From positions 1 through 64,000 of the forward strand of contig NZ_FQUY01000015.1 of NCBI RefSeq assembly GCF_900129195.1: a stretch of DNA of 64,000 nucleotides, read 5' to 3'. Source of the stretch: Desulforamulus putei DSM 12395 (GTDB lineage: Bacteria; Bacillota; Desulfotomaculia; Desulfotomaculales; Desulfotomaculaceae). Under the pieces are notes generated by a model. The model ran no database searches. It was not told where the DNA came from and saw nothing but the letters and a program-made list of their open reading frames with translations. The position numbers and the translations under genes were made by a program. Below are positions 59,824 through 64,000 of this stretch, piece after piece; position 1 is the stretch's first letter, and every line of letters begins with the position of its first letter.

Positions 59824-59835
59824 TATATTTAGTTT

Positions 59836-59973
59836 CACTAGCGTTGCATAAATAACTTTCAAAAATGTCAACATCTGAAATCGTTTTCCGATATAGTCCA
59901 TCAGTTTGGTACTGAAATCGGTTTTAAATCAATAAGGCAGGAACCAGGTCGAAAGTTTTATGCAACGCTAGTG
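59836..59973. mobile_element. MITE-like element with 23-base inverted ends
   Basis: The left end CACTAGCGTTGCATAAA... ACTTTC (59836-59860) and right end GAAAGT..TTTATGCAACGCTAGTG (59951-59973) are inverted copies differing only by a 2-base insertion. The 138-base interior has no coding capacity but contains CTGAAATCG twice. No clear target duplication is visible. It is probably a non-autonomous remnant of an insertion sequence. Confidence 0.7.
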
Positions 59974-60070
59974 CGTTAATGTATAAAAGCAAGGACTGGA
60001 TCACCGTCATGAAAAGTGATTTCAGGAGGAAATTGCTGGGAAAATATTGAATTAAGGAGTGAGATCTTTC

Positions 60071-60238
60071 ATGGCCAGGAAGTTTGGCCAAAATTGACAG
60101 CAGCCCAGGAGACGGCATATCAACACTATATTTACGGCGGTCAACGACGCCCCCTTCGATGTGGTACTGCAGAAAACGGCAGAGATAATAAAAAAGTCCA
60201 ACAGGAATGTGGATAAATCAGCGAAGCTTACATTTTAA
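60071..60238 (+). pseudogene. Small ORF with in-frame TGA, remnant or recoded
   Basis: AAGGAG about 8-13 bases upstream leads to ATG 60071 (MARKFGQN), then TGA at 60095. The same frame continues without another stop for 46 codons (.. HINTIFTAVNDAPFDVVLQK and further charged residues ending KSAKLTF) to TAA 60236-60238, just before the next gene's SD. A nonsense-disrupted gene is the simplest reading; recoding is possible but no selenocysteine hairpin is convincing. The 59974-60070 gap shows nothing else. Confidence 0.4.
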
Positions 60239-60251
60239 GGAGGGCAGGCCG

Positions 60252-62429
60252 ATGAAAAAGGAACCAACGCACCTGGACTATAAGGAACTTTTGGAAGAAG
60301 CGGGATTGCAGCAGATACAGGAGCAAGTAAGTAAAGTTACGGGCCTTGCAGCTTTAGTTACAGACCCGAGCGGCAAGCCGATTACCAGGATAAGTAATCT
60401 TTGCCCTTTCTGCGCCATAATCAATAATACGGACCCGGGTCATGCTCGTTGTATGGGTTCCCGGATTGAAACGGCAAAGGCCGTTGCTAAATCCGGGCAA
60501 CCCGCGTTGCAGTTGTGCCATGCCGGTCTGGTACTTATTGCTCTCCCGATCAAAATAAAAAACGAGACTGTAGCCGTCGTGATAGGGGAGAACGTAAGCC
60601 TGGAACCACTGCGTCTGGAGATTGTGCCGGAACTGGCAAGAGAATTGAGCCTTAATGGAAAGGAACTTATGGAAGCTGCCCGGAGGGTACCGGTATGGAC
60701 GGAAGAGCGTCTCCGGGAGGCAGTCGAACCTTTTCATACCTTCACGGATACTCTTTCCCGGCTTTTGTATTCGAAGCAGGAGTTGCAGGAAAAGACTGAA
60801 AAGCTTGCGGCCTTGTTCGAGTTCAGCCAGGTTGTTACATCAAGCCTTCGTATATCAGAAGTAGCCAAGCAGGCCCTGGAACTCGTCTTCGGGCTGACCG
60901 GTGCCACCAGCGGGTCGGTGGTCATGCTTGCCGGGGAAACCTCCGAATCGATTGAAGTTGCTGCTACTGCAGAATCGAGCAAAGAGTTCCGGGTGGTTCC
61001 CGAAAAAGAGGTCATTGAAGCGGTAACGCGCGAAGGAAGTGAGTTGCGATTTGACAGCCACCCGGAAGGCAACACAGTGGAGGAGAAGCGGCCAGCCCTT
61101 TCCATGCCCCTCAAGGTCGGGGATAAAATAACAGGGGTGTTGACACTGTCCGGCAAACTTGAGGGCGCAGAGTTCGGCGAAGACGAGGCTCGCTTTTTAA
61201 GCGTCCTTGGTACAAGCCTTGCCCTGGCCCTGGAGAACGCTCGTCTTTTCCGTGATCTGGAGGAAAACGCGGCAATGCTCAAGCAACTTATTGAGGTCGG
61301 GCAGCTGGTATCTTCCAGTTTAGAAGCGGACGTGATCATGGGATATGTGCTGCAAAGCCTGAAGGAAGTCCTGGGTGCGAAGTGGTGTGTGCTGAGGCTG
61401 CTTGATGAGGAGACGGGCGAACTGGTGCTGAAAGCGAGCCTGGGCATGAGCAAGGACTTGCAGGCAGAGGTTGAGCGAGTGCGAGCAGAAGGCACAATTT
61501 TGGGTGAGGTGCTGAAAACGGCGCAGCCGCAGCTCGTGGAAGATTTGGCAAAGTGCGCTCCCTCTTTGCACCTGCCATATTACAGCAAAGAGATACGTTC
61601 GGTTGCCGTGGTTCCCGTACTGGCCAGGGGAAAGGTACTGGGTACACTGAAAGTATATTCGTCCTCCCCTCGTCGCTGGAAGGAAGAAGAAGTCGGTTAC
61701 CTGGCGACCATCGCAAGTCAGACCGGGCTGGCGCTGGAGAACGCCCGGCTTTACTCGTCGCTGCGGGATTATTATTTGAGTGCCGTGCAGGCGTTGGCGG
61801 CGGCATTGGAAGCCAAGGACGTTTACACGCGGGGTCATTCCGTGCGGGTGGCGAATTGGGCGCGGGCGTGTGCCCGCGTACTGGGGCTTGGCGCCGAAGA
61901 ACAGGAACAGGTCTACCTGGCCGGGCTTTTACACGATTTGGGCAAGATTGGCGTGCGGGAAGACATTCTTCTCAAGCCGGGACCTCTCACTGAGGAAGAA
62001 AGAAAGGAGATGCAGAGCCACCCTGTTGTGGGGGCCAGGATTCTGGAGCCGGCCAGATTTCCGGCGGCGGTCATTACAGCCGTACGGCACCACCACGAGG
62101 ACTATGGCGGCGGTGGTTATCCCGCCGGCCTGGTTGGGGAAGAGATTCCGCTGCTGGCGCGTATTATCCGCGTGGCCGATACTTACGATGCCATGACGTC
62201 CGCCAGGCCCTACCGGCAGGCGCTTACTCAACGGCAGGCGCGGGAGGAATTAAGGCGATGGGCGGGCCGGCAGTTTGACCCGCGTGTGGTGGAGGCTTTC
62301 CTCCAGATTCCGGAAGATCAAATGGAAGAAATTCCCGGGGGGAGGGGTGGATACCCTAATGGGACTTTTTGCAGAAGTGCTCTCGCAGATAATTCGTCCC
62401 CGTGGAAATTTTCAAACAGCAAGGTATAA
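60252..62429 (+). CDS. PocR-GAF-GAF-HD-GYP signalling protein
   Basis: 725 residues. PocR-type ligand domain (about 10-165, with CPFC and CMGSRIETAKAVAKSGQPALQLCHAG as its Cys-rich hallmark region, here quoted in pieces: LCPFCAIINNTDPGHARC), two GAF domains (about 195-345 and 365-510), and an HD-GYP phosphodiesterase domain (about 530-700). HD pair: GLLHDLGKIGV. The late motif reads HHHEDYGGGGYPAGL, with Gly where HD-GYP usually has Asp, so catalysis deserves testing. ATG 60252 after AAGGAGGG. It should cleave cyclic di-GMP or a related signal. Base usage looks richer in GC than nearby genes. Confidence 0.9.
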   Translation: MKKEPTHLDYKELLEEAGLQQIQEQVSKVTGLAALVTDPSGKPITRISNLCPFCAIINNTDPGHARCMGSRIETAKAVAKSGQPALQLCHAGLVLIALPIKIKNETVAVVIGENVSLEPLRLEIVPELARELSLNGKELMEAARRVPVWTEERLREAVEPFHTFTDTLSRLLYSKQELQEKTEKLAALFEFSQVVTSSLRISEVAKQALELVFGLTGATSGSVVMLAGETSESIEVAATAESSKEFRVVPEKEVIEAVTREGSELRFDSHPEGNTVEEKRPALSMPLKVGDKITGVLTLSGKLEGAEFGEDEARFLSVLGTSLALALENARLFRDLEENAAMLKQLIEVGQLVSSSLEADVIMGYVLQSLKEVLGAKWCVLRLLDEETGELVLKASLGMSKDLQAEVERVRAEGTILGEVLKTAQPQLVEDLAKCAPSLHLPYYSKEIRSVAVVPVLARGKVLGTLKVYSSSPRRWKEEEVGYLATIASQTGLALENARLYSSLRDYYLSAVQALAAALEAKDVYTRGHSVRVANWARACARVLGLGAEEQEQVYLAGLLHDLGKIGVREDILLKPGPLTEEERKEMQSHPVVGARILEPARFPAAVITAVRHHHEDYGGGGYPAGLVGEEIPLLARIIRVADTYDAMTSARPYRQALTQRQAREELRRWAGRQFDPRVVEAFLQIPEDQMEEIPGGRGGYPNGTFCRSALADNSSPWKFSNSKV

Positions 62430-62467
62430 CTAATTTGAATCTATGTTTTTATCTGAGGAGGATTGTT

Positions 62468-62839
62468 ATGAGCGGATTCAAAAAGGAGCGGATTGAGCAC
62501 TATGAAACTTTGCTGAGGGAGATATGGATTGCGTCGGCAAAGTACCTTGGAATGGTTTCTGTGAATCTTCTTCTAGAAAGGGTTGTGTGGGAAGTTTCGC
62601 TGGAGTATAAGGAAATAGAACTCCTGCAGTACGACCAGAATGGGATCTCATGCACAAGGATAGCAGCCAGTTTAGAGGAAAACCCGGACCTACCTGTCGA
62701 GGACATGTTCATGAAGTTTATCACCAGGTATGTAGCAATTTTGGCCAAACTTCTTGGCCATGAAAGAGCGGAGGAAATAAAAACCAAGCTAAAAGAAGAA
62801 GCTACCGGTATTTCTTTTTCTACCAGGGAGGAAGGATAG
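62468..62839 (+). CDS. Hypothetical protein, 123 residues
   Basis: ATG 62468 after GAGGAGG. Helical and soluble: KERIEHYETLLREIWIASAK, then LLQYDQNGISCTRIAASLEE. It resembles no family I can name. Its stop codon TAG is followed immediately by the KaiC-like ATG, so the two are translationally linked, and both follow the HD-GYP gene by 38 bases or less. Likely an accessory of the KaiC-like protein. Confidence 0.7.
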   Translation: MSGFKKERIEHYETLLREIWIASAKYLGMVSVNLLLERVVWEVSLEYKEIELLQYDQNGISCTRIAASLEENPDLPVEDMFMKFITRYVAILAKLLGHERAEEIKTKLKEEATGISFSTREEG

Positions 62840-64000
62840 ATGGATAAATTGATAACAGGTATTAAAAATTTTGACTCTATTCTTGGTGGCGGTATACCTG
62901 TTTATTCATTAAACATTGTTTCCGGCGCTCCGGGCAGCGGAAAAACGATATTTGTCCAAAACATCATATTTAACAGCGCCAGGAGCGGCCTTAAAAGTCT
63001 ATACCTGACCACTATATCGGAATCACAGTTCAAAATGGTAAGGCATCTGCAGGGGTTTGAGTTTTTCTCAGATGATTTGCTGGGTGACAAGGTTATTTAT
63101 GGTGATTTAGGACTTGTTCTGCGTAAACAGGGGACGGACAAGGCTTTGGAATACCTGACTGAAATGATCAAAAAACATCTGCCGAACATAGTTGTCATTG
63201 ATAGTTTCAAGGCCATAAGAGACCTTTTCCCGGACGAAAAAACTTTTAAGGCTTTTGTTTTTGACCTGGCTGCCGCTCTATCGATATGGGAAATTACCGT
63301 ATTTCTCGTCGGCGAGTACGAAGAACAGGAGCTGACGCTCTTAAGCGAGTTTGCCATAGCTGACGGGATTTTTCATCTTTACGGGCAGGAAGAAAAACGA
63401 TTTCAAAAAAGGTTCATCCGTATTCTGAAAATGAGGGGAACCAGTTTTGAACAGGGGGAACATTTATTTCAAATTAGCCCTGTGGGAATAGAAGTCTACC
63501 CCAGGATGAGGCCGGAGGGTAAAGAACTCCGGTACGATGTCAAGCAGGGGCGCAAGGGATTCGGGATACCGGATTTAGACGAAATGTTGTCTGACGGGTT
63601 ATTAGAAGGGACTATTACACTCATCTCCGGTGGCACAGGTGCGGGTAAGACGATCCTTGCCCTTAAGTTCCTTCTGGAAGGGGCTGAAAAAGGCGAAAAA
63701 GGAATATTCCTTTCTTTTGAAGAGCCTGCAGCTCAACTTCTGAATACTGCCCGTCATCTGGGGTGGGAGCTGGACAAATATCTGGCACAGGGTCTAGTGG
63801 ACATCGAATTCATTTCTCCTGTAGAACTGGATGTAGATAAACACGCTTTTGAGATACTGGACATGATCAGGAGAAAAAAGGTGGAGAGGTTTGTCATTGA
63901 CAGCATTTCTTCTTTTGAAAACAGCGTTTCTGATATACAAAAGTACAAGGATTATCTCTGGGCGCTGGGACACCAGCTCAAAAGACGGCATATTAACACC
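62840..64000 (+). CDS. KaiC-domain double ATPase, 3' end outside window
   Basis: 387 codons are visible and the frame stays open at the window end. Two RecA/KaiC domains: the first Walker A GAPGSGKT (about 32-39), Walker B-like NIVVIDSF (about 116-123); the second Walker A GGTGAGKT (about 263-270), with FLSFEEP (catalytic Glu pair) and a Walker B FVIDSISS. The first domain has TTISES where KaiC has a double Glu, so it may differ in activity. Non-cyanobacterial KaiC-like proteins often work with signalling proteins. ATG 62840 after GGGAGGAAGG. Confidence 0.9.
   Translation, partial: MDKLITGIKNFDSILGGGIPVYSLNIVSGAPGSGKTIFVQNIIFNSARSGLKSLYLTTISESQFKMVRHLQGFEFFSDDLLGDKVIYGDLGLVLRKQGTDKALEYLTEMIKKHLPNIVVIDSFKAIRDLFPDEKTFKAFVFDLAAALSIWEITVFLVGEYEEQELTLLSEFAIADGIFHLYGQEEKRFQKRFIRILKMRGTSFEQGEHLFQISPVGIEVYPRMRPEGKELRYDVKQGRKGFGIPDLDEMLSDGLLEGTITLISGGTGAGKTILALKFLLEGAEKGEKGIFLSFEEPAAQLLNTARHLGWELDKYLAQGLVDIEFISPVELDVDKHAFEILDMIRRKKVERFVIDSISSFENSVSDIQKYKDYLWALGHQLKRRHINT

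Follow-up and report, generated by a model that had tools for sequence, protein, structure and literature searches.

We examined the right-hand end of a 64,000-nucleotide stretch of DNA from Desulforamulus putei DSM 12395 (contig NZ_FQUY01000015.1, positions 1 to 64,000 of the forward strand; hereafter the window), where three tightly spaced genes encode a protein with PocR, GAF and HD-GYP domains, a small protein of 123 amino acids and a tandem KaiC ATPase. Window and contig coordinates are identical, the contig totals 75,894 nucleotides, and contig positions 60,001-75,894 form locus L007 of our comparisons. The three genes lie where a first-pass annotation, made from the sequence by a model, had placed them, with 38 nt between the HD-GYP gene and the small gene and 0 nt between the small gene and KaiC. 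Their Pfam matches are stronger than chance would give, at 163.2 and 115.8 bits for the two KaiC domains (PF06745, KaiC superfamily) against a cut-off of 26.6, and 140 bits for HD_5 and 126 bits for PocR in the HD-GYP protein. They form the left end of a ten-gene island of 11.65 kb that extends beyond the window end (Table 1). On the contig the ten genes are co-directional, all on one strand, and all are open; the gaps between them are short or replaced by overlaps, except for ∼120 nt ahead of the RsbR-like gene. The reading frame of the HD-GYP gene opens at 60207, upstream of 60252. A scan for promoters and terminators gave counts near those in shuffled sequence (14 vs 10.4 and 12 vs 13.0). 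The first-pass annotation had suggested looking rightward for kinases or receiver proteins; a stressosome arm that includes an RsbT-like kinase was found there, and no receiver. Downstream (3′) of the last gene, which encodes a GGDEF-EAL protein, come integrase-core remnants (rve_3, rve_2) and then pnp.

Gene order was examined at 32 related loci. At 23 of them the small gene, KaiC and a gene for a PocR-like/GAF-GGDEF cyclase, predicted to make cyclic di-GMP (c-di-GMP), stand in fixed order on one strand, including one locus (L087) where the frames are broken and insertion-sequence genes lie inside the trio. The nine loci not counted as trios comprise one where the contig ends inside KaiC (L074), two that are decayed (L086, L088) and six of a kinase type (L030, L031, L032, L076, L077, L078). 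The conserved core is the small protein, tandem KaiC and PocR-like/GAF-GGDEF cyclase, and not the PocR-HD-GYP, small and KaiC genes that the first-pass annotation had grouped as a signalling module and whose linkage, it held, would be called into question by unlinked neighbours in other genomes. A signalling module with KaiC is supported, as its genes are recurrently linked and the small gene and KaiC stay together elsewhere, but the HD-GYP gene is partly unlinked: PocR-HD-GYP is not a constant partner, adjoining the trio at only 4 of the 23 trio loci (L007, L021, L063 and L079). An HD-GYP gene of any kind adjoins it at 16 of the 23, before or behind and with differing sensors, so that such a neighbour is common but interchangeable. 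Among 113 genomes of the class, KaiC was found at E 1e-40 or better in 19; the small gene is present in all 13 whose KaiC has at least 60% identity and in five of the six others. In a sample of 299 genomes from the phylum, it is present in 11 of 11 genomes with KaiC of at least 59% identity and in 0 of 5 with KaiC of 28-35%. A contig pattern scan for the small gene used one short pattern and yielded nine loci. Carriers by name include Desulfofundulus thermosubterraneus, Desulfovirgula thermocuniculi and Desulfotruncus alcoholivorax. As a separate observation, in a genome of the same genus (G002) the PocR/GAF-GGDEF gene lies in two frames (L028, 7659-9078), and no RsbR, RsbS or RsbT was seen in the fetched stretch.

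At five loci (L030, L031, L076, L077 and L078) the small gene and KaiC are followed by a histidine kinase of PAS-HisKA architecture; Pfam was run on four of these kinases, and that of L077 was assigned by its sequence match to L076-type genes. The PocR family (PF10114) scores 21.4 or 23.4 bits on the window's cyclase, just below the cut-off of 23.9; at the cyclase N-terminus 13 of 13 orthologues match it with E no higher than 0.05 (lowest 3e-8). PocR matches none of four kinase N-termini, which align with the cyclase N-terminus around a common W-x-x-F motif. That a cyclase is swapped for a kinase behind the same pair is our main argument that KaiC and its partner may gate the cyclase; and since the kinase has an alignable N-terminus, the N-terminus of the cyclase would be the likely input site for the pair. 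In cyanobacteria KaiC is coupled to the sensor kinase SasA, whose N-terminus is KaiB-like. The five kinase loci resemble this arrangement in setting KaiC beside a sensor kinase, whereas their kinases are of the PAS-HisKA form with the alignable, not KaiB-like, N-terminus, and the read-out at the window island is a GGDEF cyclase. At the sixth kinase-type locus (L032, 9752-12316, genome G030) we noted that the gene directly behind the small gene encodes a histidine kinase that begins with residues resembling the start of KaiC, as if KaiC had been deleted.

Table 1. Features of the island in the window and on the contig beyond it.
Feature	Position	Strand	Remarks
Island, left part	59830-64000	+	Onward on contig to 71477, outside window; limits from a sister genome (G003) contiguous across 59829 / 71478
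Insertion-sequence-like end	59836-59973		Inverted repeat 59836-59860 / 59951-59973, enclosing the 68-bp stretch 59884-59951
Scrambled pieces of a further trio copy: KaiC, GGDEF and, in inverted orientation, the small gene	60065-60215		By identity to the intact genes
PocR-GAF-GAF-HD-GYP, predicted c-di-GMP phosphodiesterase	60252-62429	+	Pfam; metal ligands kept vs solved HD-GYP proteins
Helical protein, 123 aa, private partner of this tandem-KaiC family	62468-62839	+	ATG at 62468; no family
Tandem KaiC ATPase, 467 aa	62840-64000 in window	+	Truncated by window end; complete at contig 64243
PocR-like/GAF-GGDEF, 471 aa	contig 64255-65670	+	Beyond window
RsbR-like STAS protein	contig 65788-66570	+	Beyond window
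RsbS-like STAS protein	contig 66542-66916	+	Beyond window
RsbT-like HATPase	contig 66940-67392	+	Beyond window
RsbX-like, SpoIIE-type phosphatase	contig 67389-68015	+	Beyond window
RsbU_N-like-GGDEF, 264 aa (94-residue N-domain + GGDEF)	contig 68016-68810	+	Beyond window
GGDEF-EAL, 574 aa	contig 68817-70541	+	Beyond window

The 123-residue protein matched no Pfam or NCBIfam family, its 26 members gave no consistent Pfam match, and neither the single sequence nor a profile of the 26 matched a sequence in the PDB. Its AlphaFold2 model is confident (predicted local distance difference test, pLDDT, 84.5) and helical with one small hairpin. Foldseek returned no match to this model at E < 1, and the best match from VIA was to designed bundles (Z 6.3, root-mean-square deviation 3.5, 79 aligned), with H-NOX at 5.9 (3.8, 79 aligned); no solved structure stands out, and no known fold is convincing for this protein. 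Its gene ends in TAG directly 5′ of the KaiC ATG and, in the window and the 12 relatives examined for this, shares a frame with KaiC across one stop, an arrangement that would suit a single protein made by stop-codon read-through. We consider this almost certainly wrong: the stop in relatives is TGA, TAA or TAG and is doubled in L063, a GGAGG resembling a ribosome site precedes the KaiC ATG, and in L029, L082 and L083 the reading frames of the small gene and KaiC differ. The differing stops and frames therefore argue for two coupled proteins. A fusion of the small protein with KaiC, suggested by long open frames spanning TGA stops, was likewise rejected on the junction sequences.

Both Walker A motifs of KaiC are intact. 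Domain 2 carries SFEE and domain 1 TTISES; a profile alignment sets Ser60-Glu61 opposite Glu294-Glu295 and is gapped at that spot. The first-pass annotation was thus right that one catalytic Glu is missing from the first domain, and the motifs point to a degraded first catalytic site and an intact second one. Among PDB sequences, clock KaiC chains match this protein best, and tandem RecA-type domains are common to it and the KaiABC and KaiBC systems of cyanobacteria and proteobacteria. It is improbable, in our view, that the protein serves as an hourglass or clock timer through phosphorylation of domain 2, the small protein then standing in for KaiB or KaiA. Consistent with such a timer, domain 2 retains both Glu residues and the Ser aligned with what we take to be the first of the two clock phosphosites (Ser and Thr), Ser408, a residue shared by all 11 aligned KaiC proteins, and in Rhodobacter a KaiC without KaiA functions as an hourglass, according to PMC10076222. 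However, the protein scores 179.2 bits with the circadian clock KaiC model TIGR02655, far below its equivalog cut-off of 546.25; the residue after Ser408, at the second phosphosite, is Leu; the protein's 467 residues fall ∼50 short of the 519 in clock KaiC; and its genome (G000, 65 contigs, completeness 100) gave no match to the KaiB family PF07689. The missing domain-1 Glu and the private small partner further set it apart from KaiABC and KaiBC.

The HD-GYP motif of the first island gene product is HHHEDYGGGGYP, with Gly replacing the usual Asp as noted in the first-pass annotation. We rejected this as a special feature because relatives have D, N or G at this position in the HD-GYP genes close to their trios. 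In an alignment with 4mcw and 5z7c, the ligands of the two-metal site (HD, His, HH ... D) are all kept, and this protein and 5z7c both have Tyr in place of the Glu that binds a third metal in 4mcw; we take the aligned residues to have the same roles as metal ligands. The protein carries the features by which HD-GYP phosphodiesterases are recognised, namely these ligands and the HHE..(D)GxGYP motif, with Gly for Asp, and in domain order and metal site it shows no notable difference from PocR-GAF-HD-GYP phosphodiesterases.

The right-hand part of the island contains the adjacent genes of a predicted stressosome, with STAS matches of 62 and 48 bits in the RsbR-like and RsbS-like proteins and an HATPase_c_2 match of 49.5 bits in the RsbT-like protein; solved RsbS chains are the best PDB matches of the RsbS-like protein. 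RsbR, RsbS and RsbT are all found in the fetched stretch, which differs in length between loci, at no fewer than 9 of the 23 trio loci. Both stand-alone cyclases of the island have GGEEF with RxxD five residues ahead, presumably the I-site. The N-domain of the second cyclase weakly resembles RsbU_N (PF08673); of 11 orthologues, 7 match that family, the best at E 0.0028. This GGDEF protein is the likely target of RsbT. The N-domain occurs in 11 of the 113 class genomes, eight with this KaiC and three without; 1.3 joint occurrences would be expected by chance (13 x 11 / 113), a figure that serves as a guide only since the genomes are related. In Moorella thermoacetica, RsbT has been published to control a GGDEF protein that carries the N-domain of RsbU (Quin et al. 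2012, as described in PMC12143880 and PMC4976288). According to these sources RsbR, RsbS and RsbT there stand beside the GGDEF protein, as at the window island; the Moorella cyclase is RsbU_N-GAF-GGDEF, whereas that of the island has no GAF between, is followed by a GGDEF-EAL gene and has the KaiC trio and an HD-GYP enzyme attached. The GGDEF-EAL protein looks like a phosphodiesterase because its GGDEF domain has GGNEF while the protein retains EVL, DDFG and other EAL motifs. It starts with a conserved helical domain of ∼150 residues and no recognised family (L007, 8817-9266), for which a guess at a globin-like domain found no support in follow-up searches. Two observations at other loci concern the same arm: in L026 (14695-16428, genome G029) a transposase gene (DUF772, DDE_Tnp_1) interrupts the RsbT gene, and in L081 (12571-13551, genome G170) the RsbX-like protein has an extra N-terminal HATPase_c-like stretch ahead of SpoIIE (23.3 bits, below cut-off).

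We propose, with about even confidence, that the locus is a horizontally acquired (see below) island that controls c-di-GMP through two input arms. In the first arm, tandem KaiC with its helical partner would set the activity of the adjacent PocR-like/GAF-GGDEF cyclase, and the PocR-GAF-GAF-HD-GYP enzyme, controlled by its own ligand, would oppose that cyclase. In the second, RsbR and RsbS would hold the RsbT kinase, which on stress would be released to activate the RsbU_N-like-GGDEF cyclase; RsbX would reset the complex, and the GGDEF-EAL protein would degrade c-di-GMP. We infer that KaiC would report the nucleotide (energy) state, and the ligands, physical contacts and direction of control in the scheme are likewise predictions. 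Several points weigh against it. The activities and contacts in both arms are predicted from sequence, and a joint model of the small protein and KaiC, at a pLDDT of 49.6, was too poor to use. RsbU_N has no match in the window's own second cyclase, and RsbU chains head the PDB profile search with its N-domain only weakly (E 0.12-0.45). The arms are separable, as 3 of the 11 N-domain genomes lack this KaiC and 5 of 13 KaiC genomes lack the N-domain. In cyanobacteria, c-di-GMP is described as without direct action on Kai proteins in vitro in PMC13001216, where SasA is also named. An island that merely gathers c-di-GMP and stress genes, with KaiC and the small protein unwired to the neighbouring cyclase, would accommodate the occurrence of the arms apart, the varying HD-GYP and stressosome neighbours and the failure of the joint model to show a contact. 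We nevertheless judge mere co-residence rather unlikely, for the order of KaiC and GGDEF is kept at the 23 trio loci despite differing surroundings and, where GGDEF is missing, a sensor kinase occupies the same place in five loci.

Taken singly, the parts of the island belong to known kinds. In the open-licence literature, outside which most subscription journals lie, we found neither their combination nor the private small partner described, and no account in which KaiC is paired with a GGDEF gene, linked to a stressosome or accompanied by this small protein. To our knowledge, few KaiC proteins outside the cyanobacteria have a known output, and a KaiC whose gene consistently lies between those of its private small partner and of a c-di-GMP cyclase offers a concrete and testable one, for which the histidine-kinase variant indicates where an interface should be expected. 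Gating of the cyclase by KaiC and its partner would suggest a new way of tying cell state to c-di-GMP, and the island would extend the Moorella link from stressosome to cyclase to a mobile form. More tentatively, this KaiB-less KaiC family with its obligate small partner might be a plug-in regulator that addresses interchangeable outputs, cyclase or kinase, through a common N-terminal input domain and that moves among anaerobes, where it also ties the stressosome to c-di-GMP.

The island is flanked by rpsO and pnp. Of the eight sister genomes in the genus seven were fetched, and in all seven the two genes adjoin. The closest sister by PNPase (G003, 95%) is contiguous across window position 59829 and contig position 71478, and therefore ∼11.65 kb has been inserted. 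A 68-bp stretch (59884-59951) recurs at contig 71294-71361 with 98.5% identity, forming a direct repeat near both island ends. The trio is found in two of nine genomes of the genus. Identities to the window copies of KaiC and PNPase, respectively, are 95 and 64% for the distant L063 (G402), 88 and 65% for G010, 87 and 66% for G114, 84 and 61% for G113, 83 and 61% for G029, 82 and 71% for G051 and 82 and 64% for G170, and 80 and 89% for G002 of the same genus. Horizontal transfer of the island is the simplest reading of these conflicting identities and the insertion-sequence remnants. The fragments at the island edges, the split RsbT gene of L026, the two-frame GGDEF gene of L028 and the broken trio of L087 might instead suggest that such islands are decaying and non-functional; for the window island, where all ten genes are open and the catalytic motifs intact, we see little likelihood of this. 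In the remnants of another trio copy, identity to the intact genes is 97% over 32 nt, 88.5% over 61 nt and 88% over 59 nt. They lie directly 5′ of the HD-GYP gene, a position that in L063 is occupied by a GGDEF fragment.

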